From positions 1-43,249 of the forward strand of contig CAJXPH010000002.1 in the NCBI GenBank assembly GCA_913057765.1: a stretch of 43,249 nucleotides of DNA, read 5' to 3'. The position numbers and the translations under genes are program-made. Source of the DNA: an uncultured Campylobacteraceae bacterium. GTDB taxonomy: Bacteria; Campylobacterota; Campylobacteria; Campylobacterales; Arcobacteraceae. The notes under the pieces are model-generated. The model did no database searches, was not told the origin of the DNA, and saw only the letters and a list, made by a program, of their open reading frames with translations. This document shows positions 20,974 through 43,249 of the stretch, one piece after another (within the stretch, counting starts at the first letter, position 1; each line of letters begins with the position of its first letter).

Positions 20974-20998
20974 TAAAAAAAAGTAACCTTTTGGTTAC
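20974..20998 (-). terminator. Intrinsic terminator after the GGCT-like gene
   Basis: Minus strand GTAACC-AAAA-GGTTAC followed by a T-run; stop codon lies in the stem. Confidence 0.78.
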
Positions 20999-21782: not shown

Positions 21783-23693
21783 CTATAAATCGTTTTTAAT
21801 TCTTTTAACAATTGATTCAATAGTGAATCCAAACTCATTAAATAAATCTTTTGCTGGTGCAGAAGCACCGAATGTATCCATACCATAAACTACATCTGCA
21901 AACTTGTAGTATTCCATACCACGTGCTGCTTCAACTGCAAATACTTTTGTGCTTGGGTCAATAATAGAATCAATATATTTTTTATCTTGCTCAACAAGTA
22001 AATCAAAACAAGGAACAGAAACAATATTTGCTTTGATTCCATCTTTTTCTAACTGGCAAGCTGATTGCATTGCTAACATAAGTTCAGAACCAGATGCCAT
22101 AATTGTAACTGTAGCACCTTCTCTTTTCTTAATTAAATATCCACCATTTGCAACAGTTCCAATTTCTCTAGAATCTTTTAATACTTTTAGCCCTTGTCTT
22201 GAACATACAAATGCAGAAGGTGCATTTAATTTTAATGCAATTTTCCAAGACTCAACATTTTCTGTAGCATCTGCTGGTCTAAATGTATAGAAGTTTGGTA
22301 ATGCTCTAAATTGAGATAAATGTTCAATTGGTTGGTGAGTTGGTCCATCTTCTCCAACACCAATCGAATCATGTGTCCATACGAAATGTTGTGGAATAGA
22401 AGCTAATGCCGCAATTCTAGCAGCTGGTTTTAAATAATCTGAGAATACAAAGAATGTAGCTGAGAATACTCTATATAAACCATAAAGGTTCATTGCATTT
22501 GTCATTGCTGCCATTGCATGTTCTTTAATACCAAAGTGAATATTTTTTCCATTTGGAAAATCACCCATACCTTTTAGTTCAGTTTTATTTGATGGAGCAA
22601 GGTCAGCTGAACCACCCATGAAACCAGGAATTGCAGTTGCAATTGCATTTAAGATTTTATGATTTGAATCTCTTGTTGCAACAGATGAGTCTGCTTCAAA
22701 TTCTGGGTAAACAATAGAATCAAAATCAGGATTTTGAAGTTCTTTAATTTTTGCTTTACTTTGGGCACTTAATGAGTCAGTCCATGCATTTTCTGCATCA
22801 ACACCTTTCATTAATTTATCAAAGGCACCTTTAATATCATAAGGAACTTCAAATGTTTTTTCAGGATCAAAACCAGCTTTGATTTTTGAAGCTTTGATCT
22901 CATCATCACCTAATGGAGCACCATGTGTATGATGGCTTCCTTCCATAGTTGCAGCACCTTTACCAATTGCTGTATTTGCAATGATTAAGGCAGGTTTATT
23001 TGAAGCTTTTGCAGCAACAATTGCTTTATCAATTTGGTCAAAGTTATGTCCATCAATATCAAATACTTCAAAATCAATTGCTTGAAATCTTTTCTTAACA
23101 TTTTCACTCCACGCAATAGAAGTATCTCCTTCAATTGTAATATTATTTGAATCATAAATTACAACAAGATTATCTAATTTTAAATGTCCTGCTGTTGCAC
23201 ATGCTTCATAAGAGATACCTTCTTGTAAGTCTCCATCTCCACATAAACAATATACGTTGTGATTAATAACATCTTTTCCTAAAGTATTTTGTGCATATTT
23301 CGAAGCCATTGCAAAACCAACTGCATTTGAGATACCTTGCCCTAAAGGTCCTGTTGTAATTTCAATACCATGAGTATGTCCATATTCAGGATGTCCTGGA
23401 GTTTTAGAATTAAATTGTCTAAATTCTCTCATATCAGGTAAACTTACATTAAATCCCCAAAGATGTAATAAAGAATAAACTAAACCTGTAGCGTGACCAC
23501 CAGAAAATACAAGTCTATCTCTATTTAACCATTTTTCATTTGCAGGGTTTAAATTTAAGTGAGAACTTAAAACTGTTGCAATATCAGCCATACCCATTGG
23601 TGCACCTGGGTGTCCTGAGTTCGCTTTTTGAACCATATCAGCAGCTAAGAACCTAATTGTATCTGCTTGTTTTTGAAGAAGTTGTTTTGACAT
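21783..23693 (-). CDS. tkt: Transketolase
   Basis: MSKQLLQKQADTIRFLAADMVQKANSGHPGAPMGMAD, CGDGDLQEGISYEA, THDSIGVGEDGPTHQPIEHL; start reassigned from 23711. Confidence 0.96.
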   Translation of the reverse strand: MSKQLLQKQADTIRFLAADMVQKANSGHPGAPMGMADIATVLSSHLNLNPANEKWLNRDRLVFSGGHATGLVYSLLHLWGFNVSLPDMREFRQFNSKTPGHPEYGHTHGIEITTGPLGQGISNAVGFAMASKYAQNTLGKDVINHNVYCLCGDGDLQEGISYEACATAGHLKLDNLVVIYDSNNITIEGDTSIAWSENVKKRFQAIDFEVFDIDGHNFDQIDKAIVAAKASNKPALIIANTAIGKGAATMEGSHHTHGAPLGDDEIKASKIKAGFDPEKTFEVPYDIKGAFDKLMKGVDAENAWTDSLSAQSKAKIKELQNPDFDSIVYPEFEADSSVATRDSNHKILNAIATAIPGFMGGSADLAPSNKTELKGMGDFPNGKNIHFGIKEHAMAAMTNAMNLYGLYRVFSATFFVFSDYLKPAARIAALASIPQHFVWTHDSIGVGEDGPTHQPIEHLSQFRALPNFYTFRPADATENVESWKIALKLNAPSAFVCSRQGLKVLKDSREIGTVANGGYLIKKREGATVTIMASGSELMLAMQSACQLEKDGIKANIVSVPCFDLLVEQDKKYIDSIIDPSTKVFAVEAARGMEYYKFADVVYGMDTFGASAPAKDLFNEFGFTIESIVKRIKNDL

Positions 23694-23792
23694 AATTTTC
23701 CTAATTATCATGGATTGTGTGTATGTATATTGATGCGATTATAACTAAAAGTTGTTAAATAGTTTTTGAAGTAAATAAAAAGAGGGTTTAAG

Positions 23793-23829: not shown

Positions 23830-26800
23830 TTAAAGGTCTGGCTCAATTGAAACGTCTTCATCAATAAGAACTTTAATATTAGAAGTTCCATTTGTTCCTT
23901 CATAAACATTAAATACTTCACCATCGATTTCTGTTTTCCCTGAATTAGTCCAGTTAGAATCTCCACCTTCAAGAGTAACTTTATCTCCATTTTCTCCGAA
24001 TATTTTCAATTCATCTAATTCTGGATCATCATCTAGAATTACAATATCAGATAAATCAATATTAAGATTATTAGCTTTTCCATCTGTCATGTCAACTCCA
24101 TCAACAGCAGTTGTACTATGATTTGTTAATACACTTGATAAATCAATTGTATCAGTATCTGCTAAATCAACAATATTTTCTGTTTCATGAGGTGTTACAT
24201 CAACTTTAATTGTTAAATCAAATTTAGTTACATCTCCATCTGCATCTTGTGCTTTTACTTCAAATACTTCTTCTGTATCTGAATTGAAGTTACTTGAAGC
24301 TGCTTTATATGTGTATGAACCATCTGTAATATTAAATGATAATTTTCCACCTTCTGAAGTAACTTTATCAGTAAAGCTATTAGTATAATCAACTCCATCA
24401 ACTTTAATTGAAACAATTCCTCCAGCACCATCAACATCGTAATCAATATTATCAGCTACATTTCCAGAAACAGAAGCTGAAACACTATTTTGTAATGTTG
24501 CATCTAAATCACTTGCATTCTGAACAATAACAACATCACTAGCTCCATCAACTGCAATCTCTTCTAAATACGGTCTTAAAGAAGCACTTCCAATTCCTAC
24601 AGAGTAAGTTTCTGTAAATGGTAAAGCTTTAAATGTATTTGCAATTGCATCAGTTACGCCTTGTGTATTTGATCCATTACCTGTTCTTGTCTCGTATGAA
24701 CCATTATTATCATTATCTGCCATCCCATAAGTTGGATTACCATCAGATACAAAATAAGATATTAATTGATCACTGGCAGGAACTTGTTCTGAAGCCATTG
24801 CTGCTGTTACATCTAATAATGCATCATCATAATTTGTTCCTCCACCTGCAGAGAAGCCATTAATATATGCTTTCGCTTCTGATACTGTTAACCATACAGT
24901 TCCTCCTGTACCAGTTAATGTCTGACCATAATTTCCAAATGAAGTTAACATGATTTTAACGTCACCTAAGTCATCATACTTATCAATCATATTATTAGTA
25001 GCAGTTTTAGCAAGAGCTAATTTATCTCCACCCATACTTCCAGATACATCAAATGTAATAACAAGATTTGTTGTAGTATCACCTAATTGAACTGTATTTA
25101 TTTCACCATAACTTGAAGGTTGAGTATCAACTGGAATATTAATATCAATATCTAAATTTGCAGTTGTACTATCACCATCACCATCTGTTACTGTAAATGG
25201 AACATTTAAGTCTGTAATACCTGAACTCTTATCTAATTGTGTAATCTCATATTTTGGAGTATCTGATAAAACATCTTTTGCTTCTATTTTAGCAACAATT
25301 TCACCATTTACAGTTCCTGTTAATACTTTTCCTTCTTCTGTTACAGTCCATGTAACTGCTACTGTATTTCCTAATGCATCAGTTGCAGTTGGAGTTTCCC
25401 AAGTAAATGCTAATTTATCTCCATCTAGTTTTGGATCTGTTCCATCAGCTTCACCATCAGCACCAAAGTTAAAGTCTAAACTTCCAGTTTCAAATACTAC
25501 TGTATCTTGTAATGTTGTTGATAAATCTGCGGGATCATCAACTTCAACTACATCTGCTGAAACTTGAGAAAGATAAGTAGTACTTACACTTGTTCCAATT
25601 CCTACTGCAAAAACTTTATCTATATCTTTTACTGGATCATTAACAAAATCATTCCATTTTGTCACTCTAGCACTATCTAAATATCCTGACTCTTCATTTG
25701 ATCCATCATCAATTTCAGTTGTAGGGTTACCATCAGATAAGAAGTATACATATGTATCTCCACCATTTGGAGAAAGAGTATAATTATCTTCTGTTTCTTT
25801 AAGTGCATCTTCATAATTTGTTAAACCACTGTGATTTAAACCATTTAAGAATGTAGTTAATTCAGATGAAGTCATCCAATCACCAGTACCACTTGCTGAA
25901 GCATTAAACGTATTTACTTGAATTAATACATCACTTCCTAAAGACTCATATTTAGCAACTAATTCTTCAATTGATTCAATTGCAATTTCAAGTTTATCTT
26001 TACCAGTCCCAGCTACTATATCATTCATACTTCCAGAGATATCTAATGTAAATACTAAATTAACAGGATCTGTATTTAAATCAATTGTGGCTGTTGCATC
26101 TCCTGCAGAAGGGATATCATCTGCAATTGTTACATTTAATGTATCAGTAACTTTTCCATCATTGTTTGACGCTTCAATAATTAGTGGAAGATTAACTGTA
26201 TCTTCTGAATCCATTACAGGATGGTCAAGTTGTCCCATTAATTCAAATGAGTAAGACTTACCATTCGCTGCAATTGTTGCAACAAATACTACCTCACCAT
26301 TAGATGTACCAGTTATTGTTTTATCTCCATTACTATAGTCTAATGAAATAGCCTGACTCTCAGAAGTTAAAGTTGTAGTTTGTCCAGCTTTAAATACTAC
26401 ATCATCAGCATTAGTTACATTAATATTTCCACTATCTTCATGTTGATTTGCTACAGCATCAGTATCTGGATCAGTTTCATTACCTACATTAGGAATAAAG
26501 TCTTCATCAACCTCTGCACCTTCAACTACAAGTGTTGGAGGGACTTCAGTATAACCTTGGATTTTGATAGTTAAGACTGCTGTGTCTTCATCACCATCTG
26601 CATCTTCCATTGTATAGTTAAAGGTAAATGTTTTAAGATCTGTATCAGTTAATGCTTGTACTTTTGCAAGAGTATTATCTAATACAAATTCATATGTTCC
26701 ATCAGCATTTAACTTTAATGTTCCATATGTATTTAATTCTGCTACATCTGCATCACCAACTGTATCCCAACTTACAAACGCTTTAGGTGCATCTGCTCCA

Positions 26801-29800
26801 GAAATATCATTTGTTAATACTTGACCTTCTACTTTTGTTACTGCTGCATCTTCTACTAAAGTAGCAGTTGTATCATCATTTGCTTCTGGAGCATCGTCCA
26901 TGATTCTAACAATTAATTCATCAGTAGCTGTAGTTCCACTTATTCCATTTACTGTAATATCTAATTTATCATCAAACTTAGTATCTGTTGCACCAGCTTT
27001 ACTATCATTATCAATAGTAGCTTTTAATGTATACTCATAACTTACTGTTCCACCAAAGTCATCTCCAGTAAATCCAGTTAATTTAAGTGTACCCTCACCA
27101 GTATCAACTGTTTGATTCGTTGAAGCTAAAGCTTTTATTTCTGCAATAGTGAATGTATCCCCACCTACTACGATATTTTTAATACCATCTGTTGTACTGA
27201 TATCAAATGTATTTGTTGCAATTTCTTTATCTGTCGCAGATTCTGTACCATCTGGCGATAATCCTGCTTCATATACTACATCATCAGCTCCAGTTGCTTT
27301 TGCAGTTTCAACATCTGCACCATCTTTAGCACCTTGGATTTTAATAGTTAATACAGCTGTATCTTCATCACCATCTGCATCTTTCATTGTATATTCAAAG
27401 TTAAATGTTTTAAGGTCAGTTGTTTTTAATGCTTGTACTTTTGCAAGAGAATTATCTAATACAAATTCATATGTTCCATCAGCATTTAATTTTAATGTTC
27501 CATATGTATTTAACTCTGCTACATCCGGGTCTCCAGCTATATTCCAGCTTACAAATGCTTCTGGTGCATCTGCTCCTGATTCATCATTTGTTAATACTTG
27601 TCCTTCTACTTTTGTAGTTGCTGTATCTTCTACTAATGTAGTAGTTAAATCATCTTGTGCAACTGGAACATCATCAACAATAGTAATTTTTAATGTACCA
27701 TTTGTCGTATCTCCATCTGAATCTTCTAACTCTAATGTAATATTATCTACAAATTCAGTATCTGTTGCACCAGGCTTACTATCATTATCAATTGTAGCTG
27801 TTAATGTATATTCATAACTTATCTCACCAGTACTTTGATCATAATCAGTAATTAGTAAACTACCTTCGCCTGTATTAATAGGTGAGGAAGGTGTAGTAGT
27901 ATTATGTATAGCTTCTAATTGTGCCTCTGTAAATACTACCCCACCAATTGTTACTCTTGCAATTCCATCAGGAGAAGTAACTTTAAATGTTCCAGTAGCA
28001 ATTTCGCTAGTATCAGGAACACTTGTTAATCCTTTTTCATATACAGTATTGTCATCTCCAAGAACTGTTGGGCTACTATCAACACTTACATTTAGATTAG
28101 ATGATGAACTATCTCCATCTGCATCTGTAACTGTAAATGGAATAGTTACCCCTGTAATTCCAGCATCTTTATCAAACTGAGATATAGAATATTCTGGATT
28201 TGCTGTATTAATTCCTGTAGCTTCAACTTTTATAACTGTTTCACCATTAATTGTACCAACAAGAACTGTACCATCTGTTATTGTCCAAGTGATTGCACCA
28301 TTTGTACCAGTTGTAGTAATTTCACTTAAAGCATTAGTTGAATCTCCATCTCCCCAAGTAAATGCTAATTTACCACCATCTAATTTAACACCTGTTCCAT
28401 CTGCTGCGCCATCTGCGCCAAAATCAAATGTTAATGAACCAGTTGCAGTTACAACAGTTCCTTGTAAAGTATCAGATAATTTTGCTGGATCAGCAACTTC
28501 TAAATAGTCTGCAGATACTTGTGCAAGATAAGTTGTACTTACACTTGATCCAATACCAATAGAGAATACTTTGTCAATTTCGTTTCCTGGGTTATTAACA
28601 AAAGTATTCCAATCTGCAACTCTAGCACTATCTAAGTAGCCTGACTCTTCAGCTGCCCCATCATTAATTTCTGTTGTTGGGTTACCATCAGATAAGAAGT
28701 AAACATACGTATCTCCTCCATTTGGAGAAAGTGAGTAATTATCTTCTGTTTCTTCTAATGCATCTTCATAATTTGTTAATCCACTATGGTTTAATGTATT
28801 TAAGAAAGTTTCTAATTGTGATGAAGTCATCCAAGAACCATCTCCACTTGCTGTTGCATTAAATGTATTAACTTGAATTAAAACATCACTTCCTAAAGAC
28901 TCATATTTAGCTACTAATTCTTCCATTGCGTCAATTGCTACTTCAAGTCTATCTTGACCTGTACCACTTACTCCTGATCCCATACTTCCTGAGATATCAA
29001 GAGTAAACACTAGGTTTACAGGACCTGCCGTTGCATCTAATGAAGCAGCTGAATCAGATGAACTTGGAGTATCATCAGTAAATTGAAGATTAGAACCAAT
29101 ATTTATTGTTTCTGTATCACTAGCAGTATCACCATCTTTATCTGTTACAGTTACAGTTGCACTTAGTTTAATTAAGTTATCAACTAATGTTGCAAGATTT
29201 GCATCATTATTTGTTGCATCATTATCTGCATTTTCATCTACATGGTCAATTGCTTCACTTTGGGTAAGTGTTACCTCTCCAGCATCATTTCCACTCTCAA
29301 CAACACTTACTTTAAATATTTCTGTTGAACCTGCTGTACCTATAACTTCGCCATTTATAACATTAAGAACAATTGTAACACCGTGGCTAGTTAATCCTGA
29401 ATCAGTTCCATCTACTGCAGATAATTTATATTCTGTTTCTGTTTTTGCTATACCATCTGCTCCTCCTGTTATACTTCCAGGTGAAGATTGGAATGTTTGA
29501 CCAAAATTATACGATGACGTCTCAACATCAGAAGCAGTACCTTTAGTATCTACATCATCAGTTCTTAAAATAACTCGTGAATCATCTTTTGAAGAAATAT
29601 CTACTGTTGGCCCATCATCTTTAAATGTTAAATTAGTACCAATTTCAATACTTTCTGAGTCTGTTGCAGTATCTCCATCGTTATCAGTTATGATATCTGT
29701 TCTTGTTAATGTTACTAAGTCATCTGCATTTAATGTAACACTATCATCATGTTCATTATTTGTATTATCTCCTGCAATTGGATGTTTTAATGCTCTTTGT

Positions 29801-32800
29801 TGATCTAATGTTACTTCAGCAGTTGATTCATCTATTGATACTGTAAATACTAATAATCCACCAGTTTCTGTTCTACCTTCAATTACTCCTGCATTATCAG
29901 TTAATACTACTTTTTCACTTGTAGCAACATCAACTAAGCCACTATCAGCTCCATCTGCTTTAACATCTAAAGTATATTTTGTACTTGATTTTGAAGCATC
30001 TTTTTCATCTTCTCCGGCTTGTTCTTTTACAGTAAACATAGCTGCGAAGTTTGCGTTATCATTTATTGATAAGTTTGTTTCATCTACTGTTAATGTTGGC
30101 TCTGTTATAGCTGTTTTCTTAACATCTACTGCTGGACCATCATCTTTAAATAATAAGTTTTTACCAATATCAAGTTTTACAGAATCTGTATCTGTATCAC
30201 CATCGTTGTCTACTAGTACATCTGTTCTAGTTAATGTTACTAAATCATCAGAAGTTAAACTTACTGTATCATCTGGGTTTGCTGCATCTGGGTGAGATAA
30301 TGCTCTTTGTTGATCAAGCGTTACTTCTCCAGTAGTTGCATTTACTGTTACTGTGAATACTAATAATCCACCAGTTTCTGTTCTACCTTCTACTACTCCT
30401 GATGCATTTTCAGTTAATAATACTTTTTCACCACTTCTAGTATCGATTAATCCTGTATCTGTATTTGCTGCTTTTACATCTAATGTATATTCAGTACTTG
30501 ATTTTGAAGCATCTTCGCCATCTGCTCCTGCATCTGATGTAACTACTGTAAACATACTTGCAAAATTTGCTTTATCAGAAATTGCTATATTTGTTTCATC
30601 TACTGTTAAATTTGGCTCTGCAGCAGTTGTTTTATCTATATTAATTACTGGTCCATCATCTTGGAATCTTAAGTTTCCACCTAAATCAACGATTGCAGAA
30701 TCAGATGCTGTATCACCATCTTTATCTGTAATTGTTACATCTGCAGATAATTCTATTTTTCCATTTACTAATGAAATTATTTCACTATTTGAGTTAGTGT
30801 TTGGATGATCTAGTACTTCATATTGAGTTAAAGTAACTTTTCCACTAGCATCTACACTTACTTTAAATACATCAGTAGTTCCAGCTGTACCAACTACTTC
30901 ACCATTTACTAGAGATAAAGTAATCGCAACTCCACCACTTGTAAGTCCACTATTAGCATTTTTTACACTTAAATTATAGTTGTCTACATCTATATTTCCA
31001 GCTCCATCTTCTCCATAGTTTGCACCAGTTGAAGCAAATACTCCACCAAAGTTTGCACTTGTAGTATCAGTATCAAATGCCGCACCTTCAGTTTGTGCAT
31101 CTTGAGTAGTAAGAGTTACTAATGATTCATTATTAGCAACTGCATCAATAAGAGGACCATCATCTTTAAATGTTAAATTAGCACCAATATTAATAGTATC
31201 TGAGTCTGTTGCTGTATCTCCATCATTATCAGTTACAGTATCAGTTCTTGTTAATGTAACTAAATCATCTGCAGATAAATTCACTGCATCATCATGATCT
31301 GTCACATCTGGATGAATTACTGCTCTTTTTTGGTCTAATGTTACATTACCTACATTATCAACTGATACAGTAAACACTGTTGTTTCAACACCTGCAATTG
31401 TTACATAACCAACTACTTGTCCAGCATCTACTTTTAATAGAACATTATCACCTGTTGCAGTGTCAACTAACCCACTATCCACATTTGATGATTTTACATC
31501 TAATGAATAATCTATATCGTGAGATTGTTCACCATCTGTTCCTGCATCTTTTGTAGCACTAAATAATCCTGCGAAACTTGCACTATTATCAATATTTAAG
31601 TTTGTTTCATCTACTACTAAAGTAGGTTCTACTCCACCACTAACACCAGTTAAACTAATGTCATCAATTAAAGCTCCAAGTTTATTTGAATCAGCTAAAC
31701 CTTCAAAAGTTAAGTCAGCTGTAGTTCCAGTAATTCCACTATAAACTACATCAATTGTTACCCATCCATTTGCATCTGTTGTCGTTGTATATTGAACTGT
31801 ATTATCACTTGGATTAGTAGTTATTGTTAAAACCCCATTTGAATCAGAATCAATTGTTAATTCTTTTCCTCCAAATGTAACTTTCATATCTGAACTTTCT
31901 TTATCACTTGGTCTTGGTTGATAAGCAAATGAAAGTTCATAACTATCAGAACCAATTAAAGTAACTGGTGTTGTCATAACGGTATTACCATCTTGACCAT
32001 CAAAATCATGTGGATCTAATTCTGCATGACTACTTCCATCATCAGAAGTAGTTACGATATTTTTTTGAATTTCAACGCCTTCAGCATTTAAATCCCATAC
32101 TACGCCATGATCTCCAGTAATAGTTGTATCTGTACTATTATCTTGACCATTAATATCTCCACCACCATGCTCAACATGCCAACCATTTCCTGTTCTAAAG
32201 TTTTCAAACGATTCTTCAAGAATTAAAGTTTTAATTTCTGGGTTAGCTGTTACATCAACAGTTGGTCCATCATCTTTAATATTAAATGCACCTACATCTA
32301 CAGTTGTATCACTTGATACTAATGCAACTGTTGATGTATCTGTATCTCCATCTGCATCTGTTACTGTTTGTGTTAAGTTAATTGATACATCTACTTGATT
32401 TAATTGTCCAAGTACTAGGCTCTCTGTATCATCATGATCTGCTGTATTTGAATGCCATACATTCTCAGATTGTGTAAATGTTACATTTGTTCCTGTATTA
32501 CTAATTGTGAAGTATGTTACTCCACCTGCTGTACCAACAATTGATCCATTCACTTCACTTAGTAAAATCTCTGCACCTTTTGCACCATTTACACCTAATG
32601 CAAATAATCCTGATTGAACTCCACCTACTGTTGTACCTGTTGCATTTGTTAAGCTAAGTGAATAATCTACACTTCCTGCTCCATCTGTTCCATATAAATC
32701 TGTTGCTGTTACTCCACCTACTCCTACTACTTTAAATAAGCTTGTGAAGTCTGCTGAAGAAACTCTATCTGCATCTGTATCTGCTGGATTTGCTTGTTGT

Positions 32801-35800
32801 AATGCACTCTCATCTACTGTTAATGCAATCTCATTTGCTTGTGCTTTTTCTACTTCTGCATCCGTTAATCCTGCTTCTGGTCCATCATCTTCTATCTTAA
32901 AGAACTTTCCATTACCAACATCTAATCCATCTGAAGTAGCACTATCTCCATCGGCATCTGTAATTGTTTGTGTTACAACTAGTGTATTTGCAATTGTTGT
33001 TTGTAATACTGATGCATCATCTGAATCAGTTGTATTTGCATTCCAGATATTTGCTGGATCTACTTGATCATCATATGCGATTGTTAAAGCACCACTACTA
33101 TCAATTGATATTGTAAATACTTTATCTGTTCCATCTATACCACTTACAGTTCCATCTCCATTATCTACTAGAAGAATCTCTGCGCCTTTTCCATCTACTT
33201 GTGTATTATCTAAGATATATAATCCTGATCCTACATTAGTTGCTGGTGAAATTAAGTTTAATTCTAAGTTAAATGTTGTTGTTCCTGCTCCATCTGTTCC
33301 ATAACTTCCTGCTGCTGTACCACTAAAGGCTGATGATACATCAACTGTAGCACTATATATTCCATCATCTGTTAATGGAAGTTCTGACTCATCTAATATT
33401 GCTGTAGTTGTCCATTGTACATTTACATTTACATCATTAAAATCACCATCACCATTTGGTATTTGTAAGTCTTCCCAATTTTGATTACCAATTAAAGCAT
33501 TATCTTCAACGTGGTCTTGATTATCTTTATTTAAACTATCTTCATCAAAAAGGACATGAGAACCTTGTCCTACAATAGGAGTACCACTTGAAGTAATTTC
33601 TGCTTGCCATTGACCATCAGCATTCTTCACAAATGTTACTTCTGTATTATCATTTAGATTTGTATTTTTATTTTCTCCATTAGGAATAATAAAGAATCCA
33701 ACTTGATCTTGTGTATATCCTGTAACTGTAACAGGAACAGTATCTGAATCATGAACATCATCCCATACAATAACACCTGTAGTTGGCTCACCAGTAACTG
33801 GATCTTTTAAGTAGTAACCATAGCTATTATGGTAACCAGCAGAAGATACATCATCATGATTAGTTATTGTAAATTGATTACTCTCTAATAAATTTATATC
33901 TGGGCTAGCAGCTGTTGGTCCATCATCTTCTATCTTAAAGAACTTTCCATTAGCTACATCTAAATCACCTGATGTTGCACTATCACCATCTGCATCTGTG
34001 ATTGTTTGTGTTACTACTAATGTGTTTGCTGTACTTGTTGTTAAGGCCTCTGTATTATCACCATCATTCGCTGGTGATTGATCATGCCAAATATTATCTG
34101 GATTTACTGTATCTACATATTCAAATGTTAAATTACCTGTAGTAGCATCTATTTTTACAGTAAATACTTCATCTCCTGTTGATGCTACGATACCTGTTAT
34201 TACTCCAGCTTTAGTAACTAGTTCTATTTCTTCACCTTTCCCTACTTCTCCAGCTGTTGTATTACTTGGGTCTAAAATATATAGTCCTGATCCAATATTT
34301 TCAGTTTTTAGTGTTAGATTATATGTTGTACTTCCTGCTCCATCTGTTCCGTAACTTCCGGCAGTTGCAGTACCTGTACTAAAAGCAGCTGCTACATTTA
34401 CTGATGCAGTATATACTCCATCTCCTTCTACAGCTACAGTATTTGGATCATCTTTCGCTGATTCATCTAATGTAGCTGCTGTTGTGTTATAGTTTGCATC
34501 TACTACTGATGCTGTTGGTCCATCATCTTTAATATTAAATGCACCTACATCTACTGTAGTATCACTTGATACTAATGCAACTGTTGATGTATCTGTATCT
34601 CCATCTGCATCTGTTACTGTTTGTGTTAAGTTAATTGATACATCTACTTGATTTAATTGTCCAAGTACTAGGCTCTCTGTATCATCATGATCTGCTGTAT
34701 TTGAATGCCATACATTCTCAGATTGTGTAAATGTTACATTTGTTCCTGTATTACTAATTGTGAAGTATGTTACTCCACCTGCTGTACCAACAATTGATCC
34801 ATTCACTTCACTTAGTAAAATCTCTGCACCTTTTGCACCATTTACACCTAATGCAAATAATCCTGATTGAACTCCACCTACTGTTGTACCTGTTGCATTT
34901 GTTAAGCTAAGTGAATAATCTACACTTCCTGCTCCATCTGTTCCATATAAATCTGTTGCTGTTACTCCACCTACTCCTACTACTTTAAATAAGCTTGTGA
35001 AGTCTGCTGAAGAAACTCTATCTGCATCTGTATCTGCTGGATTTGCTTGTTGTAATGCACTCTCATCTACTGTTAATGCAATCTCATTTGCTTGTGCTTT
35101 TTCTACTTCTGCATCCGTTAATCCCGCACTTGGTCCATCATCTAAGATATTAAATTGTGCTACATCTGCTGTATCTTCACTTGATACTAATTTAACTGAT
35201 GCGCTAGCTGTATCTCCATCTGCATCTGTTACTGTTTGTGTTAATACAATTGATACATCATCACTATTTAATTGACTTAACGCAATACCTTCTGCATCAT
35301 TATGATCATTTGTATCTGAGTTCCAGATATTTTTAGCTTGTGTAAATGTTACTACTCCATTTGCGTCAGTACTGATTGTAAAGTAAACTTCACCATTTGC
35401 TTTACCTTCAATATCTCCAGTAACAGCATTTACAGTCATGATGATTTCATCACCTTGACCAATTCCATCACCTGGTGTTGCAACTGTATCACTAGCATCT
35501 AATGCATATAATCCTGAACCTAGAGTTGTGATTGTTCCTGCTGAATTAGTTAAGCTTAATGAATAAGCTACACTTCCTGCTCCATCGGCTCCAAAATCTG
35601 CTGATGTACTACCATTTACAGTAACTGTTGAGAATAAGCTTGAAAAATCTGCTTTTGAAGAACTTGCTCCATCATTATCTGTTGGATCTGTTTGTGCTCC
35701 TTCTGTCTCATCTACTGCTAATATAATGTTATTTGCATCTGTTTTTGATGTTTCTGCTAATGCTGTTAATCCTGCCGTTGGTCCATCATCATAGAACTCA

Positions 35801-37884
35801 ATATCTAAGGCACTTTCACTTATAGCTGAGTCACTATCTCCATCTTTATCTGTTACTTTTTGTTCTACTTTAATTAATCCGTCTAAATCTAACGGAGTAT
35901 TTGTATCATTATGAGAAATAGCTGTTGAACCATCGTCTGAATGCTCCATTGCAGCATTTTGAGTAACTGTTACTTTTCCAGTTACACTATCAATTTCTAC
36001 TGTAAATACTGCTGGTGTTGTAACATCTCCATTTACATATCCCGCATATCCATCTGCAGTTACTACTAATTTAATCTCATTTGCTGGAACTGATTCATCT
36101 GCTCCGGATAGAAACAATCCTGTACCGACTAAAGATGTTGCAGATAAACTATATTCTACTGTACCTGCACCATCTGCTCCATAATCTATTGGACCAAATA
36201 ATCCACTAATATCTGTCGCTGAAATTATTGCTGGTACACCAAGTCCTGTTCCTGCAGTCATATCTGTTGTCTCATCCAAGTCAACATCTGCTGTTACACC
36301 TGGTTTTGCCTCAACTGTTGGTCCATCATCTTTAAATATTAAATTTGCACCTATATTTAATGTAGCATCATCTTCTGCTGTATCTTCATCATTATCAGTT
36401 ATCACATCTGTTCTTGTTAATGTTACTAAATCATCAGAAGCTAAGCTTACTGAATCATCTGGATTTGTCGCATCTGGGTGAGTTAATGCTCTTATTTGAT
36501 CTAATGTAACAGTACCCGTAGAATCAACTGATACAGTGAATACCAGCAATCCTGTAGTTTCAGTTCTACCTTCAATTACTCCTGCATTATTAGTTAATAA
36601 TACTTTTTCACCAGTTGCAATATCAATTAAGCCTGTATCTGCATCTGCCGCTTTTACATCTAAAGTATATTTTATATCATGAGATTTTTCACCATCTGCT
36701 CCGGGATGACTATGTGAATTAAAATTATAAGCAAAGTTTGCACTTGCATTTGTACTAAGATCTGTTTCATCTACAATTAATTCTGGTTCTCCACCTTCTG
36801 ATTCTTGATCAACATATACATCAATACTTGGAACATCATCGATAATATTAATTTCTAGTTGTCCACTTGCAGTATCACCATCAGCATCTCTAACTGATAT
36901 AGCAATAAAGTCTGAAACTGTATTTGCGTCATTATTTGATGAATCCCCATCAGCTAATTCATCATTATGATCTAAATTAGTTGTAAGAGTATATGTAAAA
37001 CTAACTACTGATACTCCAGCTGATACTTCAGTATAACCATCAATTACAAGAGTTCCTTCTCCAGTATTAATACCAGTAGAATCTGTTGTATTTGTAGCTA
37101 ATAATTGATCTACTGTAAATTCACGTCCACCAATTGTTACAATTGATATACCATCTGGAGATTCAATTCTAAATGTTCCACTAACAATATCACTATCCCC
37201 AGGATTAGATCCATGATCTAGACCTGCTTCATATACAATACGACCATCACCAATAATTAATAAAGGATTACTATCTTCTTCTCCAGCATCAACTTCACCA
37301 TTAGGCTCACCTCTATCAACAGTTAATCCTCTACCTCTTGCATCAACACCGTATGCTTGTCCTGAAGGATCAATAATACCTGAGTTAGCCCCAGAATTTT
37401 GACCTAGTTCTCCACCAGCTGCTGCTGCATCTAATCTTTCAAGTAAAGAACCAAAGTCATCAATAATAATACCATTTTGGTAATCTTCATCAGGATTAGT
37501 TGTATCAGATAGTAATTCTTTTAAATCACTAATTACTTTATCACCTTGAAACTCATTGTTTAATGCAGTTTCATTAAGTTCTTTCATACCATCATTATCG
37601 TCCATGATTCCAATAACTGTTTTTGTATTTTCATTAACTGCATTATCAGATTGCTTAATTAATTCTGCCATACCTTTAAGGTTTATTACTAATCTTTCAC
37701 CATTTCCAGCAAAGATAAGTTCAACAGATTCTTCTCCATCTGCAAGGTTAAAAGTATGTTTTCTACTTCCATCAGTGTTATCAAAATAAAACTGTTGTCC
37801 TTTACTTGGACTCAATGTAGTATCTTGAGTAATCTCTTTCGTAGTTTGCGAACCGTCTGGGTTTTTAATTATCAACTTGATCAT
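23830..37884 (-). CDS. Giant type I-secreted adhesin (4684 aa): N-terminal module, many DDGP-delimited extender repeats, DUF4114-like and jelly-roll-like inserts, three vWA domains, T1SS-type C-terminus
   Basis: Uninterrupted ORF; extender consensus LTVDETNL..VTLTRTD..TDNDGDTATDS..IGANLTFKDDGP; VCBS-like segments; three DxSGSM MIDAS motifs; C-terminal ELKIFGENGDKVTLEGGDSNWTNSGKTEIDGEVFNVYEG. Confidence 0.93.
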   Translation of the reverse strand: MIKLIIKNPDGSQTTKEITQDTTLSPSKGQQFYFDNTDGSRKHTFNLADGEESVELIFAGNGERLVINLKGMAELIKQSDNAVNENTKTVIGIMDDNDGMKELNETALNNEFQGDKVISDLKELLSDTTNPDEDYQNGIIIDDFGSLLERLDAAAAGGELGQNSGANSGIIDPSGQAYGVDARGRGLTVDRGEPNGEVDAGEEDSNPLLIIGDGRIVYEAGLDHGSNPGDSDIVSGTFRIESPDGISIVTIGGREFTVDQLLATNTTDSTGINTGEGTLVIDGYTEVSAGVSVVSFTYTLTTNLDHNDELADGDSSNNDANTVSDFIAISVRDADGDTASGQLEINIIDDVPSIDVYVDQESEGGEPELIVDETDLSTNASANFAYNFNSHSHPGADGEKSHDIKYTLDVKAADADTGLIDIATGEKVLLTNNAGVIEGRTETTGLLVFTVSVDSTGTVTLDQIRALTHPDATNPDDSVSLASDDLVTLTRTDVITDNDEDTAEDDATLNIGANLIFKDDGPTVEAKPGVTADVDLDETTDMTAGTGLGVPAIISATDISGLFGPIDYGADGAGTVEYSLSATSLVGTGLFLSGADESVPANEIKLVVTADGYAGYVNGDVTTPAVFTVEIDSVTGKVTVTQNAAMEHSDDGSTAISHNDTNTPLDLDGLIKVEQKVTDKDGDSDSAISESALDIEFYDDGPTAGLTALAETSKTDANNIILAVDETEGAQTDPTDNDGASSSKADFSSLFSTVTVNGSTSADFGADGAGSVAYSLSLTNSAGTITTLGSGLYALDASDTVATPGDGIGQGDEIIMTVNAVTGDIEGKANGEVYFTISTDANGVVTFTQAKNIWNSDTNDHNDAEGIALSQLNSDDVSIVLTQTVTDADGDTASASVKLVSSEDTADVAQFNILDDGPSAGLTDAEVEKAQANEIALTVDESALQQANPADTDADRVSSADFTSLFKVVGVGGVTATDLYGTDGAGSVDYSLSLTNATGTTVGGVQSGLFALGVNGAKGAEILLSEVNGSIVGTAGGVTYFTISNTGTNVTFTQSENVWHSNTADHDDTESLVLGQLNQVDVSINLTQTVTDADGDTDTSTVALVSSDTTVDVGAFNIKDDGPTASVVDANYNTTAATLDESAKDDPNTVAVEGDGVYTASVNVAAAFSTGTATAGSYGTDGAGSTTYNLTLKTENIGSGLYILDPSNTTAGEVGKGEEIELVTKAGVITGIVASTGDEVFTVKIDATTGNLTFEYVDTVNPDNIWHDQSPANDGDNTEALTTSTANTLVVTQTITDADGDSATSGDLDVANGKFFKIEDDGPTAASPDINLLESNQFTITNHDDVSSAGYHNSYGYYLKDPVTGEPTTGVIVWDDVHDSDTVPVTVTGYTQDQVGFFIIPNGENKNTNLNDNTEVTFVKNADGQWQAEITSSGTPIVGQGSHVLFDEDSLNKDNQDHVEDNALIGNQNWEDLQIPNGDGDFNDVNVNVQWTTTAILDESELPLTDDGIYSATVDVSSAFSGTAAGSYGTDGAGTTTFNLELNLISPATNVGSGLYILDNTQVDGKGAEILLVDNGDGTVSGIDGTDKVFTISIDSSGALTIAYDDQVDPANIWNANTTDSDDASVLQTTIANTLVVTQTITDADGDSATSDGLDVGNGKFFKIEDDGPEAGLTDAEVEKAQANEIALTVDESALQQANPADTDADRVSSADFTSLFKVVGVGGVTATDLYGTDGAGSVDYSLSLTNATGTTVGGVQSGLFALGVNGAKGAEILLSEVNGSIVGTAGGVTYFTISNTGTNVTFTQSENVWHSNTADHDDTESLVLGQLNQVDVSINLTQTVTDADGDTDTSTVALVSSDTTVDVGAFNIKDDGPTVDVTANPEIKTLILEESFENFRTGNGWHVEHGGGDINGQDNSTDTTITGDHGVVWDLNAEGVEIQKNIVTTSDDGSSHAELDPHDFDGQDGNTVMTTPVTLIGSDSYELSFAYQPRPSDKESSDMKVTFGGKELTIDSDSNGVLTITTNPSDNTVQYTTTTDANGWVTIDVVYSGITGTTADLTFEGLADSNKLGALIDDISLTGVSGGVEPTLVVDETNLNIDNSASFAGLFSATKDAGTDGEQSHDIDYSLDVKSSNVDSGLVDTATGDNVLLKVDAGQVVGYVTIAGVETTVFTVSVDNVGNVTLDQKRAVIHPDVTDHDDAVNLSADDLVTLTRTDTVTDNDGDTATDSDTINIGANLTFKDDGPLIDAVANNESLVTLTTQDAQTEGAAFDTDTTSANFGGVFASTGANYGEDGAGNIDVDNYNLSVKNANSGLTSGGVAITLSLVNGEVVGTAGTTDVFKVSVDASGKVTLTQYEVLDHPNTNSNSEIISLVNGKIELSADVTITDKDGDTASDSAIVDLGGNLRFQDDGPVINIDKTTAAEPNLTVDETNIAISDKANFASMFTVVTSDAGADGEDASKSSTEYTLDVKAANTDTGLIDTRSGEKVLLTENASGVVEGRTETGGLLVFTVTVNATTGEVTLDQQRALSHPDAANPDDTVSLTSDDLVTLTRTDVLVDNDGDTDTDSVKLDIGKNLLFKDDGPAVDVKKTAITEPTLTVDETNLSINDNANFAAMFTVKEQAGEDEKDASKSSTKYTLDVKADGADSGLVDVATSEKVVLTDNAGVIEGRTETGGLLVFTVSIDESTAEVTLDQQRALKHPIAGDNTNNEHDDSVTLNADDLVTLTRTDIITDNDGDTATDSESIEIGTNLTFKDDGPTVDISSKDDSRVILRTDDVDTKGTASDVETSSYNFGQTFQSSPGSITGGADGIAKTETEYKLSAVDGTDSGLTSHGVTIVLNVINGEVIGTAGSTEIFKVSVVESGNDAGEVTLTQSEAIDHVDENADNDATNNDANLATLVDNLIKLSATVTVTDKDGDTASDTETINIGSNLQFTDDTPSSSDSAASLDATAGPVNLVFTLDISGSMGSGVSGTGQDRLEVAIDAMEELVAKYESLGSDVLIQVNTFNATASGDGSWMTSSQLETFLNTLNHSGLTNYEDALEETEDNYSLSPNGGDTYVYFLSDGNPTTEINDGAAEESGYLDSARVADWNTFVNNPGNEIDKVFSIGIGSSVSTTYLAQVSADYLEVADPAKLSDTLQGTVVTATGSLTFDFGADGAADGTGVKLDGGKLAFTWGDGDSTNALSEITTTGTNGAITWTITDGTVLVGTINGETVIKVEATGINTANPEYSISQFDKDAGITGVTIPFTVTDADGDSSSSNLNVSVDSSPTVLGDDNTVYEKGLTSVPDTSEIATGTFKVTSPDGIARVTIGGVVFTEAQLEAIHNTTTPSSPINTGEGSLLITDYDQSTGEISYEYTLTATIDNDSKPGATDTEFVDNITLELEDSDGDTTNGTLKITIVDDVPVAQDDLTTTLVEDTATTKVEGQVLTNDESGADAPEAFVSWNIAGDPDVAELNTYGTLKLNADGTYEFVLDNSLAKVQALKTTDLKTFNFEYTMKDADGDEDTAVLTIKIQGAKDGADVETAKATGADDVVYEAGLSPDGTESATDKEIATNTFDISTTDGIKNIVVGGDTFTIAEIKALASTNQTVDTGEGTLKLTGFTGDDFGGTVSYEYTLKATIDNDSKAGATDTKFDDKLDITVNGISGTTATDELIVRIMDDAPEANDDTTATLVEDAAVTKVEGQVLTNDISGADAPKAFVSWDTVGDADVAELNTYGTLKLNADGTYEFVLDNTLAKVQALTDTDLKTFTFNYTMEDADGDEDTAVLTIKIQGYTEVPPTLVVEGAEVDEDFIPNVGNETDPDTDAVANQHEDSGNINVTNADDVVFKAGQTTTLTSESQAISLDYSNGDKTITGTSNGEVVFVATIAANGKSYSFELMGQLDHPVMDSEDTVNLPLIIEASNNDGKVTDTLNVTIADDIPSAGDATATIDLNTDPVNLVFTLDISGSMNDIVAGTGKDKLEIAIESIEELVAKYESLGSDVLIQVNTFNASASGTGDWMTSSELTTFLNGLNHSGLTNYEDALKETEDNYTLSPNGGDTYVYFLSDGNPTTEIDDGSNEESGYLDSARVTKWNDFVNDPVKDIDKVFAVGIGTSVSTTYLSQVSADVVEVDDPADLSTTLQDTVVFETGSLDFNFGADGEADGTDPKLDGDKLAFTWETPTATDALGNTVAVTWTVTEEGKVLTGTVNGEIVAKIEAKDVLSDTPKYEITQLDKSSGITDLNVPFTVTDGDGDSTTANLDIDINIPVDTQPSSYGEINTVQLGDTTTNLVITFDVSGSMGGDKLALAKTATNNMIDKYDDLGDVKIMLTSFGNYGQTLTGTGGTVWLTVSEAKAYINGFSAGGGTNYDDALLDVTAAMASEQVPASDQLISYFVSDGNPTYGMADNDNNGSYETRTGNGSNTQGVTDAIANTFKALPFTETYSVGIGSASLRPYLEEIAVDGASDVVIVQNASDLDATLQNSVSASVSGNVADNIDYDVDGAGGIVSIKVDGVDYTNSFTDKVTSEGGKLSFNITDGSYTYKAASSNFNSDTEEVFEVKAQDADGDVTKFDLTIKVDVTPHETENIVDLADTDTIDLSSVLTNHSTTAVDGVDMTDGKANNLNIDLSDIVILDDDPELDELKIFGENGDKVTLEGGDSNWTNSGKTEIDGEVFNVYEGTNGTSNIKVLIDEDVSIEPDL
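32308..32871 (-). repeat. Identical direct repeat, copy A (pair with 34561..35124)
   Basis: By-eye alignment shows about 564 identical bases at a constant offset of 2253. Confidence 0.85.
34561..35124 (-). repeat. Identical direct repeat, copy B (pair with 32308..32871)
   Basis: As copy A; antisense ORFs at 32744 and 34997 begin with the same peptide MKSAEETLSASVSAGFACCNALSSTVNAISFACAFSTSASVNPA. Confidence 0.85.
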
Positions 37885-38056: not shown

Positions 38057-38857
38057 TTAGTTTTTAGGAGTAATAATTTTAAAAAGAGCGCCTTCTTTTG
38101 TGTTTTCAACCCATAGTCTACCATTCATATTATTTTCTATAATAAGTTTTGACATAAATAAACCAATTCCTGTTCCGCCTATTTTTTCATATGTAAAAAA
38201 AGGTTTAAAAATATTTTCAACAGGCTTTACATTAACGCCACCTGCGTTATCTTCAATAGAAATAAGAACATCTTTTTTTGTTTCAGAAACGATTATCTTA
38301 ATTTTTGGTTCTTTGATTTTTCTCTGAATTAGAATATCTTTTGCGTTATTTATTATATTTATAAGTACCTGTGTATACTCATTTTTATACCCAACAAGTG
38401 TCGGATTTTTCTTAATTATAATCTCAAGCATAATATTATTTGCTTTTAAACTTGAACTTATAATATTAAGTGAAGCATTAATTTGTTCAGATAGTTTGAA
38501 TTCTTCTTTTTCTTTACTAGTTGCAAAAAAGTCTCTAAAATCATCAATTGTATTTGACATGTATTTAGTTATGTCATTTAATTTTACAATAGACTCTTTT
38601 AATTCTTTTTTATCAAGTTCTAAATCATAATCAAGCCTTGCTTGAATTGGGATAAATAAAGATGAAAGTTCCATCAAAGGTTGTCTCCATTGGTGTGCAA
38701 TGTTATTTAACATCTCTCCCATTGAAGCCATTTTATTTTGGTGAAACATTATCTTATCTTTCTGTCTATTTTTTTCAACTTCAACAGCGACAAGTTTTTC
38801 TAACTCTTTATTTTGTTCCTCTAATTCTAGAAAATCATCTAATTTAGTTTGTCTCAT
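38057..38857 (-). CDS. Soluble sensor histidine kinase (HisKA + HATPase)
   Basis: H-box NNIAHQWRQPLMEL, N-box QVLINIINNAKDIL, GGTGIGLFMSKLIIE; N-terminal coiled coil, no TM segment. Confidence 0.92.
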   Translation of the reverse strand: MRQTKLDDFLELEEQNKELEKLVAVEVEKNRQKDKIMFHQNKMASMGEMLNNIAHQWRQPLMELSSLFIPIQARLDYDLELDKKELKESIVKLNDITKYMSNTIDDFRDFFATSKEKEEFKLSEQINASLNIISSSLKANNIMLEIIIKKNPTLVGYKNEYTQVLINIINNAKDILIQRKIKEPKIKIIVSETKKDVLISIEDNAGGVNVKPVENIFKPFFTYEKIGGTGIGLFMSKLIIENNMNGRLWVENTKEGALFKIITPKN

Positions 38858-38902: not shown

Positions 38903-39664
38903 TTAGAAATTTTCTCCACGTGTAAAGATTGTTTTAGTGATTTTTTCACCTTTTTCATTAATATATGCAACGTGTCCATTACCGACAACTTTTGCATAAC
39001 CTTTAGAAAAATCATATCCGTATTCATATGTAGGTTCAACTACAACTTTACAAGTATCATTGATGTATCCCCATTTTCCATCTTTAACAGTTCTTGCAAA
39101 ACCATTATGAAGATTATATATTTCATCATATACATCATTTATTTTTAAGTCCATATCCTTTGTGATACAACCCCATTTTCCATTTGCATTAGATTGTACG
39201 AAAGCTGCATTACCTAAAAATTCTCTAGCATTTCTAAAGATTGGTTTTTGAATTACTTCAAACTCATCATTTAAAAATCCGTATTTATCATCAAGTTTAA
39301 TTACAGAGAAGCCATTAAATAATTTTGTAATAGAATCATAAATTGGTTTTACAACCATTTCATTATCCTTATTTATTACTCCATACTTTCCTTTGTACTC
39401 TGCAATTGCATAGTCGTCTCCATAATAATTATGAAGCCAATGTAAGTTAACTATATTAGGGTGATCTGTTTTAATGTTTTTATTCTTTCTATCATCAAAA
39501 TTAGATAACTCATCATATACAGGCTTAACTATAACTTCATTACTATTTGCTAGAACCCCATATTTTCCCTTTTCATTAACAATTGCTATGTCTTCTTTAG
39601 TTGAACAACCAGTGAAGAATAGTACTGCTAATGAAGTTGTTATTAAAACTTTTTTGAACATCAT
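38903..39664 (-). CDS. WG (KWG)-repeat lipoprotein
   Basis: Lipobox LFFTGCST; repeats GKYGVLANSNEVIVKPVYDEL, GKYGVINKDNEMVVKPIYDSI, GKWGYINDTCKVVVEPTYEY. Confidence 0.88.
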   Translation of the reverse strand: MMFKKVLITTSLAVLFFTGCSTKEDIAIVNEKGKYGVLANSNEVIVKPVYDELSNFDDRKNKNIKTDHPNIVNLHWLHNYYGDDYAIAEYKGKYGVINKDNEMVVKPIYDSITKLFNGFSVIKLDDKYGFLNDEFEVIQKPIFRNAREFLGNAAFVQSNANGKWGCITKDMDLKINDVYDEIYNLHNGFARTVKDGKWGYINDTCKVVVEPTYEYGYDFSKGYAKVVGNGHVAYINEKGEKITKTIFTRGENF

Positions 39665-39672: not shown

Positions 39673-41016
39673 TTATTTATTTGGATCAGTTTCTATTCTA
39701 AACTCTACTCTTCTTGATAATTCAATATTTTCCGAACCATCTGCATTTAGAACTAATTCTGATGAAGACTTACCTTCTGGAACAAATGCTTTTTTGATAA
39801 ATAACTTATTATCAGAAACAGCAGGATCAGTAATACCTGACATATAATCTAATACAGTACCAGCTCTTTTTTGTGATAATATTCTATTTTTTTCAAACTT
39901 AGCTTCTGGTGTTGGAGCTGTTCTATATCTTGAAGATGTATGTCCTTCAACATTTACACTTACAATCTCAGATTCGTAATCTTTTAAGATATTGATATAT
40001 CTTGGGAAAAAGCTATTTAAAATCTCTTTGTATTCAGTTCTAATTTTACTACTTCCTCTTGTAAACATAAGTGCTGGGTTTTTAAATCTAAATGTTAATG
40101 TATCTTCATCTAATTCAGCATTCCAATCAGCAAAATCTGGTCCAAATTCACTATTTAATGCATTATATAAGTCATTTAATACGTGTATTGTTAAATCATC
40201 TTCAGCTTTTCCTCTTTGATTAGCAGAATTTACTGCCATTGCAGAAGCCGTGTAATCACCATTTGCTAGCTTATTTTCTACATCTGCACACCATCTATTA
40301 CCATCAATATTACCATCAATTACAGTTTGTCCACCATCAAATGACAATTGAACTTGTTGAACATCAGAATCAAGAACATTACCACAAATTTGAGGTGTAT
40401 TATCATTAATTACTTTGTAATCATCAATTGTAATTAAGTTATAAAATTGTTCTTCTGCAACTGGTGCAGCTGCCATAACTTTTTCAGTACATTCAGCTTC
40501 AACATTTTCAGCTCTTAAAAGCTGTGCAATTTTTACATCATTTGTTTTTGATGCATAATGTAAAGGTGACATATCATACTTATCTAATACGTCTCTAGAA
40601 GCACCATTACAAATAAGTAGTTTTGACATATTTGTATAACCATTTCTAGTTGAATCAATTAATGGTGTATCACCATATTTATCAATACTATTTACACCCG
40701 CCCCATTTCCTATTAACATTGTTGCTGCATCAAAATGATTAAATCTAGATGCTAAATGTAATGGAGTATAACCGAACCTATCTTTTTCATTTAAATTGAT
40801 TTTTTCATCAATAAAGAATTTAACTAACTTCAAATCATTTACTCTAACTGCATCGTGAATTGTTGACTCAGTTAAAATGTCCTTATGACTTAAACCTGTA
40901 ATTTTGTTACCTTGTGCCATGTTTTCTTTGTTACTCATAGCATTTTCATTTTTAGCTGTACAACCAGTAAAAACGATTAATGCCGCAACGCTTAATCCGA
41001 ATAAATATTTTTTCAT
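39673..41016 (-). CDS. Lipoprotein with ankyrin repeats and C-terminal OmpA-like domain
   Basis: Start reassigned to MKKYLFGLSVAALIVFTGCTAK; ankyrin DRFGYTPLHLASRFNHFDAATMLIGNGAGVNSIDKYGDTPL; OmpA-like SVNVEGHTSSRYRT...KNRILSQKRAGTVLDYM. Confidence 0.88.
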   Translation of the reverse strand: MKKYLFGLSVAALIVFTGCTAKNENAMSNKENMAQGNKITGLSHKDILTESTIHDAVRVNDLKLVKFFIDEKINLNEKDRFGYTPLHLASRFNHFDAATMLIGNGAGVNSIDKYGDTPLIDSTRNGYTNMSKLLICNGASRDVLDKYDMSPLHYASKTNDVKIAQLLRAENVEAECTEKVMAAAPVAEEQFYNLITIDDYKVINDNTPQICGNVLDSDVQQVQLSFDGGQTVIDGNIDGNRWCADVENKLANGDYTASAMAVNSANQRGKAEDDLTIHVLNDLYNALNSEFGPDFADWNAELDEDTLTFRFKNPALMFTRGSSKIRTEYKEILNSFFPRYINILKDYESEIVSVNVEGHTSSRYRTAPTPEAKFEKNRILSQKRAGTVLDYMSGITDPAVSDNKLFIKKAFVPEGKSSSELVLNADGSENIELSRRVEFRIETDPNK

Positions 41017-41035
41017 TTTTGTCTCCCTTTTTAAT

Positions 41036-42526
41036 TTATCTTTCATGTAATGAATTTTGTTTAACTTTCAATATAGGTTTTAAAATAAAATCCAATATCG
41101 TCTTCTTTCCAGTTATAATATCAACACTTGCCACCATTCCAGGAATGATTGGAAGTTTGTTTCCGTTTCTTTCTAAATAGTTTTTACCTGTTTTGACAAT
41201 AACTCTATAATAACTCTTACCCTCCTTAGATTCTTTATCTATAATACTATCTGCTGATATTTCCACAATTTTACCATCAAGTCCACCATAGATTGAAAAA
41301 TCGTATGCTGTAATTTTTACAATTGCTTTTTGACTTGGATTAATAAATGCAATATCCTTAGGATCAATTTTCGCTTCTACTAGTAATACATCACTAACAG
41401 GAACAATTTCAACTAAATCCATACCAGATTGAACTACACCTCCTATTGTGTTAAAGTTAAGTTGTTTAATAATTCCATCAACAGGAGAAACAATAGTTGT
41501 TTTAGCAACCCTATCTTCATCTCCAACTAACTTAGCTTCAAATTTATTAATTAAACTTGCTGTCTTTTGTAAGAGATCAGAAGCTTCTGCCCTAAATGCA
41601 TTTAACTTCTCAGAGATTCTATTATTTGCTTCAGAGATAGCTAACTCTGATCTTCTAACTGATAGAAGTGCAGATTCTAAATCTCCACTTACATTTGTAT
41701 ATTCTCTTTCAATAGTTAACAAGTCAAATTTTGATTTAACACCTCTACGTGCTAGTTTTTGAACCTGAACTCTTTGTTGTTTTATTAAAGAAAAACTTTT
41801 CTTTAAGTTTTTAATTGAGTTTTTTATTTCTCTTAATTCTTGTCTTTTTTGTCCCAATTGCGTCTTTAATACACTAACTGATGACTTTAATTCTTTATAT
41901 CTATTAACTAATAGACTTTGTTCTAATTTATCATACCTTGAGTCATCCTCTAAAACTTCTTTTGGAAAAACGAACTTTGGTAATTTCTTTCTAACATCAA
42001 TTTTTGATTCAATTTCAAGTCTTGTTTTTACTGCTAATAAACTAATATACTCTTGTTTACTCTCTTCTAACGTTGCTTGAAACCTTGTAGTATCAATTTT
42101 CATCAAAGAAGAGCCTTTTTTTATAAATTGTCCTTCTTTTATAAAAATTTCTGAAATAATACCACCATCAAGTGATTGAATTCTTTGAATTTTATCTGTA
42201 GGAATTACTTTTCCATTCCCACGTGCTAATTCATCTACTTCAGCTAGAGCTGCCCATGATATTGCACCAATAAAAAATAATGTTATAAATAAGAAAACAA
42301 ATCCAGATAACCTGCTTGGCTGTTCATTAGCATCCGAATAACTTGAATATACAAACTCTAAGTCTTCATCCTCTTCATCTGAGAGCCCATACATACGTCC
42401 AAACCAACCAACTCTTTTTTTCGTTTTTAATTTTTCTGAGGCTTCAGTATATGACGAATTGTCGTCTATGGTTTTGTTTTCTTCAATAACTTGTGGTATT
42501 GGATTTTTATTTTCCATTTTTACCAC
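41036..42526 (-). CDS. HlyD/LapC-family type I secretion membrane fusion protein
   Basis: Single TM, EVDELARGNGKVIPTDKIQRIQSLDGGIISEIFIKEGQFIKKGSSLMKID, TTIVSPVDGIIKQLNFNTIGGVVQSGMDLVEIVP. Confidence 0.93.
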   Translation of the reverse strand: MVKMENKNPIPQVIEENKTIDDNSSYTEASEKLKTKKRVGWFGRMYGLSDEEDEDLEFVYSSYSDANEQPSRLSGFVFLFITLFFIGAISWAALAEVDELARGNGKVIPTDKIQRIQSLDGGIISEIFIKEGQFIKKGSSLMKIDTTRFQATLEESKQEYISLLAVKTRLEIESKIDVRKKLPKFVFPKEVLEDDSRYDKLEQSLLVNRYKELKSSVSVLKTQLGQKRQELREIKNSIKNLKKSFSLIKQQRVQVQKLARRGVKSKFDLLTIEREYTNVSGDLESALLSVRRSELAISEANNRISEKLNAFRAEASDLLQKTASLINKFEAKLVGDEDRVAKTTIVSPVDGIIKQLNFNTIGGVVQSGMDLVEIVPVSDVLLVEAKIDPKDIAFINPSQKAIVKITAYDFSIYGGLDGKIVEISADSIIDKESKEGKSYYRVIVKTGKNYLERNGNKLPIIPGMVASVDIITGKKTILDFILKPILKVKQNSLHER

Positions 42527-43199: not shown

Positions 43200-43249
43200 C
43201 TGTCTCTTATACACATCTCCGAGCCCACGAGACCAGAGAGGATCTCGTA
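43200..43249 (-). other. Illumina Nextera P7-side adapter contamination: CTGTCTCTTATACACATCTCCGAGCCCACGAGAC, i7 index CAGAGAGG, then ATCTCGTA
   Basis: Exact match to the Nextera read-2 adapter at 43200..43233; index at 43234..43241; start of P7 at 43242. Confidence 0.98.

Follow-up and report, generated by a model that had tools for sequence, protein, structure and literature searches.

Three vWA domains in a giant LapA-type adhesin of an uncultured Campylobacteraceae bacterium

LapA of Pseudomonas fluorescens and P. putida, one of the closest known counterparts of the adhesin described here, is exported by a type 1 secretion system (T1SS), carries its vWA domain in a C-terminal position and has a di-alanine site for the protease LapG, which is encoded in the genome together with LapD. 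The vWFa domain of the P. putida protein is required for a peptide-dependent gain in biofilm (PMC9180339). The C-terminal vWA position, the di-alanine site and the presence of LapG and LapD in the genome recur in the present case, together with T1SS genes for an ABC transporter and an HlyD-type protein, but the adhesin has three vWAs, a stalk of DUF5801/T1SS-143 units, no detectable RTX nonapeptides and a host from the Campylobacterota; its locus includes genes for a kinase, a WG-repeat protein and an ankyrin protein, and the LapG-LapD pair lies on another contig.

Different types of ligand-binding module likewise occur together in AhLap of Aeromonas hydrophila (PMC12077191), and its vWFA, which binds diatoms, is located near the C-terminus and projects from a companion split domain, an arrangement that is also proposed here. 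However, AhLap has one vWFA, which emerges from an RTX beta-roll, whereas the three of the studied adhesin appear to sit in DUF5801-like beta domains. A further Lap-like protein from outside the Gammaproteobacteria is DvhA of Desulfovibrio vulgaris (PMC13090378), with a vWA between beta repeats and a site that fits the LapG consensus [T/A/P]AAG given in the same work, but it contains one vWA and a C-terminal serralysin-like domain, and DvhG and DvhD are encoded in the same operon. Three to four vWAs per large open reading frame are found in Pseudomonas subflava and relatives (L054, L065, L066), two of the three with DUF4114-type modules, but these vWAs belong to other clades of the tree than those of the studied adhesin.

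A literature search with phrases for bacterial adhesins with multiple vWAs retrieved only papers on collagen VI and molluscs. A survey has reported that the majority of adhesive domains are present in a single copy per protein and has named VWA among the repeat-forming ones (PMC8286594), and thus an adhesin with several vWAs fits existing knowledge and adds detail to it. The present locus extends the LapA/LapG/LapD class with multiple vWAs to the Arcobacter-group Campylobacterota.

The adhesin gene and its neighbourhood

The window, i.e., the whole stretch of DNA that was analysed, is one complete contig of 43,249 bases from a genome of 2.9 Mb in 374 contigs. It encodes a giant LapA-type adhesin of 4,684 amino acids with three vWAs (Table 1). 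Upstream of the adhesin gene are the genes for the ABC transporter, the HlyD-type protein, the ankyrin/OmpA-domain protein, the WG-repeat protein and the histidine kinase, and downstream is the transketolase gene; this gene order recurs across the genus and the family, either completely or as far as sequence is available. It should be noted that the contig ends (open reading frames 33..479 and 42507..43247), like the ends of loci L021 and L022, translate to adaptor-like peptides (MYKRQ..., SYTHLTLPTKRIV, LLYTSDAAD), which are likely an assembly artefact that spoils the reading frames at the edges.

Table 1. Features of the adhesin locus, with positions in the window
Feature	Position	Strand	Remarks
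Transketolase	21783..23711	-	downstream of adhesin; marker of its conserved chromosomal position
Adhesin gene	23830..37884	-	13 DUF5801 and 12 T1SS-143 repeat stretches, 2 cadherin/VCBS stretches, 3 vWAs (profile matches)
Putative C-terminal type 1 secretion target region	23833..24168	-	without RTX nonapeptides
Beta-domain remainder behind vWA3	24169..24486	-	weak match to BapA/Bap/LapF large adhesin C-terminal model
vWA3 (aa 4269-4466)	24487..25080	-	diverged; C-terminal LapA-like slot; Pfam match, tree, model
Beta-domain remainder behind vWA2	25120..25494	-	
vWA2 (aa 3937-4130)	25495..26076	-	close paralogue of vWA1; Pfam match, alignment
Beta-domain remainder behind vWA1	28081..28449	-	DUF5801 profile positions 19-136
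vWA1 (aa 2952-3145)	28450..29031	-	MIDAS: DISGS, T in SGLTNYEDAL, D in FLSDGNPT
Upstream DDTP stretch	29032..29076	-	with remainder behind vWA1, proposed split companion domain
Jelly-roll-like insert (aa 1875-2098)	31591..32262	-	weak TIG/DUF642 matches, below cut-off
DUF4114 module (aa 1322-1502)	33379..33921	-	inserted, non-repeat; 31.4 bits vs cut-off 27
AAAAGG, candidate LapG cleavage site	37411..37428	-	fits published [T/A/P]AAG consensus
Putative N-terminal retention-type module	37429..37884	-	present in 16/16 genomes of the genus
Histidine kinase	38057..38857	-	adjoins adhesin; syntenic
WG-repeat lipoprotein-like protein	38903..39664	-	syntenic
Ankyrin/OmpA-domain lipoprotein-like protein	39673..41046	-	syntenic
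HlyD-type membrane fusion protein (LapC-like role)	41036..42526	-	syntenic
T1SS ABC transporter (LapB-like role)	42507..43247	-	syntenic; 5' end cut by contig end

The LapA-type context that had been proposed from the letters of the window is supported by the di-alanine site LDAAAAGG at the N-terminus, by a LapG-LapD pair in the genome and by the predicted LapA-like fold of vWA1 and vWA3. The motif L-D/E-AAAAG is kept throughout the family, while the putative retention-type module before it has no match among the Pfam and NCBIfam profiles. LapG-family proteases (PF06035) are encoded in three copies (L020, L021, L022), only one of which is adjoined by a gene for a LapD-type receptor (PF16448). 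A search of the whole adhesin for the RTX nonapeptide GGxGxDxUx yielded no hit, which rules out an RTX adhesin in the strict sense. The stalk contains a direct repeat of 630 bp (32261-32890 and 34514-35143, 99% identical), possibly a recent duplication or conversion, or an assembly problem. Since the number of vWAs in its close relatives ranges from none to four, the adhesin, though genuine, is a rather typical representative of the known LapA class.

The vWA domains and the modules around them

All three vWAs surpass the cut-offs of Pfam VWA (PF00092) and VWA_2 (PF13519) and have a complete MIDAS (DxSxS, T, D). vWA1 has DISGS(M) at 28998-28984 (aa 2963), vWA2 has the same motif at 26043-26029 (aa 3948) and vWA3 has DVSGS(M) at 25050-25036 (aa 4279), all on the minus strand, and the MIDAS columns D13/S15/S17, T87 and D116 are invariant in an alignment with 11 homologue rows. 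The sequence-only reading, which had predicted three vWAs with intact MIDAS motifs at these positions, the first two close paralogues and the third diverged, was thus confirmed. vWA1 and vWA2 are 77-80% identical (77% over 206 aa) and share the quoted motifs VNTFNA (aa 3005/3990), SGLTNYEDAL (3034/4019) and YVYFLSDGNPTTEI (3060/4045), while vWA3 has about 32% identity to vWA1. The placement of the domains near the C-terminus applies to vWA2 and vWA3 but not to vWA1, which begins around residue 2952 of the 4684 and is followed by about 1,540 further residues.

AlphaFold2 models were obtained for vWA1 with its flanks (mean pLDDT 87.5) and for vWA3 through the C-terminus (86.2). Since the best structural match of both models is the vWFA of P. 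fluorescens LapA (9no5; target-normalised TM 0.82 for vWA1 and 0.79 for vWA3), both domains are predicted to adopt the Rossmann-like vWA fold, and nothing in the models points to the failure to fold as vWA that the initial reading had allowed for. The identity of 77% to vWA1 suggests the same fold for vWA2.

The region that mediates binding is likely to be wider than the three vWAs, because the adhesin contains two further inserted non-repeat modules that had escaped the first reading. When the DUF4114 or the jelly-roll-like module is removed, the rejoined flanks align over nearly all 187 positions of the repeat unit (121 and 194 bits, respectively), and as this restores a complete repeat unit, both modules are clean insertions. 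Both sit right behind a DDGP linker, and a search by sequence for PDB relatives of the two found none. A DUF4114-type module is common to the studied adhesin and to Pseudomonas-group adhesins with at least two vWAs (L054, L064, L065, L082, L097).

vWA1 and vWA2 occupy a comparable place, ahead of a GADG motif. The downstream flank of vWA1 resembles positions 19-136 of DUF5801 with a score of 22 bits, under the cut-off of 27, and the flanking motifs are retained by homologues across several phyla. This profile match and the cross-species conservation are the evidence for the proposed split companion domain, and the setting of vWA1 resembles the split-domain design of AhLap, in which ligand-binding modules project from companion domains. 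The companion is not a plain copy of the adhesin's own repeat unit, as the joined vWA flanks score no higher than 5-8 bits, where shuffled sequences reach up to 5.3; the companion domains have diverged from the ordinary repeat units.

Number and types of vWAs among relatives

The N-terminus of the adhesin is present in 16 of 16 genomes of the genus, albeit in a more distant form (39-43%) in G001, G004, G014 and G015, and the same locus is not established for all genomes counted. Compared with the three vWAs of the studied genome, four were counted in G002, at least four in G006 and G013, at least three in G007 and G012, and one or at least one in G001, G004, G005, G009, G010, G011, G014 and G015. 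None were found in the adhesins of G003 and G008, and the latter was left out of the count because its gene is broken. Thus, six of the 15 countable genomes have at least three vWAs (range 0-4), with the counts being lower bounds because the adhesins of several relatives are split over contigs.

A hand count in 104 genomes of the family revealed 53 vWA-bearing frames of at least 800 amino acids, 41 with one, six with two and six with three or more vWAs, and all six of the last kind belong to the studied genus. When 249 genomes were sampled from the order, each large frame from outside the family had one vWA. Among 80 named loci, a query-biased sample, about 15 have at least two vWAs and four at least three, three of these four from Pseudomonas. 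Thus, one vWA is the rule family-wide, and three are above the family norm but ordinary in the genus. Judged by the criterion of the initial reading itself, the vWA number in orthologues, the suggestion that three copies mark the adhesin out did not, for the most part, hold, as at least five relatives in the genus have three to four or more and Pseudomonas adhesins have three to four; as a unique trait, three vWAs are rejected by the census of genus, family, order and named loci.

The finding of lasting value is that vWAs vary in number and type at a single syntenic locus. The closest partner in the tree is vWA1 of G013 for vWA1 (97/85) and vWA2 of G012 for vWA2 (98/89), and therefore the duplication that gave rise to vWA1 and vWA2 is older than the split of these species. 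vWA3 groups with the C-terminal vWAs of G012 and G013, and in all three adhesins it ends 216 aa before the C-terminus. This C-terminal slot, which closes 204-218 aa before the C-terminus, is occupied by a vWA of a different clade in G001, G002, G004 and G007; the studied adhesin and that of G007 share 88% identity over their final 112 aa, but only about 30% between the vWAs in the slot. G006, the closest genome when GlnD is compared (86%), has no vWA of the vWA3 type, which is present in G012 and G013 (73%). The GlnD matches of G014 and G015 each contain one internal stop codon (TAA), as reported by the tool.

Thus, vWA content does not track species relatedness, and since, in addition, the type of vWA in the C-terminal slot differs between relatives, the modules seem to be exchangeable, gained, lost and swapped like cassettes. 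The pattern is not easily explained by vertical descent alone, and exchange or differential loss of modules would account for it. It might even be, although this is put forward tentatively, that the adhesin of this genus is a platform on which recombination moves at least five vWA types between fixed slots, so that close relatives differ in their adhesion targets, as is the case for variable surface proteins elsewhere. The natural series of none to four vWAs of several types at one syntenic locus permits tests of how vWA number and type affect attachment.

Proposed function and alternatives

Judging from its homologues, the protein would function in adhesion and would leave the cell by way of the neighbouring type 1 secretion genes; its N-terminal module would keep it in the outer membrane until the di-alanine site is cut by a LapG-type protease, and the conserved parts suggest that LapD would block this cut when c-di-GMP is bound. 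Along the beta-domain stalk, five non-repeat modules (DUF4114, jelly-roll-like, three vWAs) would be displayed, and the vWAs are predicted to bind ligands via a metal ion in the MIDAS loops. vWA1 and vWA2 probably bind the same ligand for avidity, and vWA3, a separate type in the slot that is used by LapA, probably binds a different one, while copy number and type would shift among relatives by duplication, loss and exchange. This account as a whole is considered likely, and in it both multivalent binding (vWA1/vWA2) and diversified binding (vWA3 versus the pair), which had been offered as options, are plausible.

Shared specificity of vWA1 and vWA2 would be expected from their identical MIDAS loops (35/35 positions versus 118/159 outside the loops; Fisher p 1.4e-4, with the loop segments picked after the alignment had been inspected) and from their dN/dS of 0.24. 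The same two observations, the latter indicating purifying selection on the pair, argue against three different ligands for the three vWAs, which is unlikely even though vWA3 shares only about 32% of its residues with the other two, the loop directly behind DISGSM reads GSGVSGTGQ in vWA1 and NDIVAGTGK in vWA2, and the two lineages were already separate before the split from G012 and G013.

Alternatively, only the C-terminal vWA might matter and the others might be near-neutral by-products of repeat recombination. The adhesin gene is highly repetitive, copy number swings from none to four among relatives, and in G002 two vWAs lie inside a 99.9% identical repeat of 792 bp. Nevertheless, this explanation is rather improbable, since all MIDAS residues are retained in each of the three vWAs and dN/dS is 0.20-0.26 across the paralogue and orthologue comparisons, which argues that the modules are maintained. 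Quite improbable is a role as structural or self-association modules that bridge adhesins instead of receptors for outside ligands, because, although the P. putida vWFa acts with peptides in the medium and its ligand is unknown (PMC9180339), the vWFA of AhLap was monomeric and bound diatoms (PMC12077191).

Inspection of the remaining window by eye revealed an arsenic-type cluster at 15475-21656 (a doubled ArsA-like ATPase, an ArsD-like protein, a permease, an ArsC-like phosphatase, a transporter and an ArsR-like regulator) and, at 1521-4826, two PII-like genes that alternate with two ammonium-transporter-like genes.
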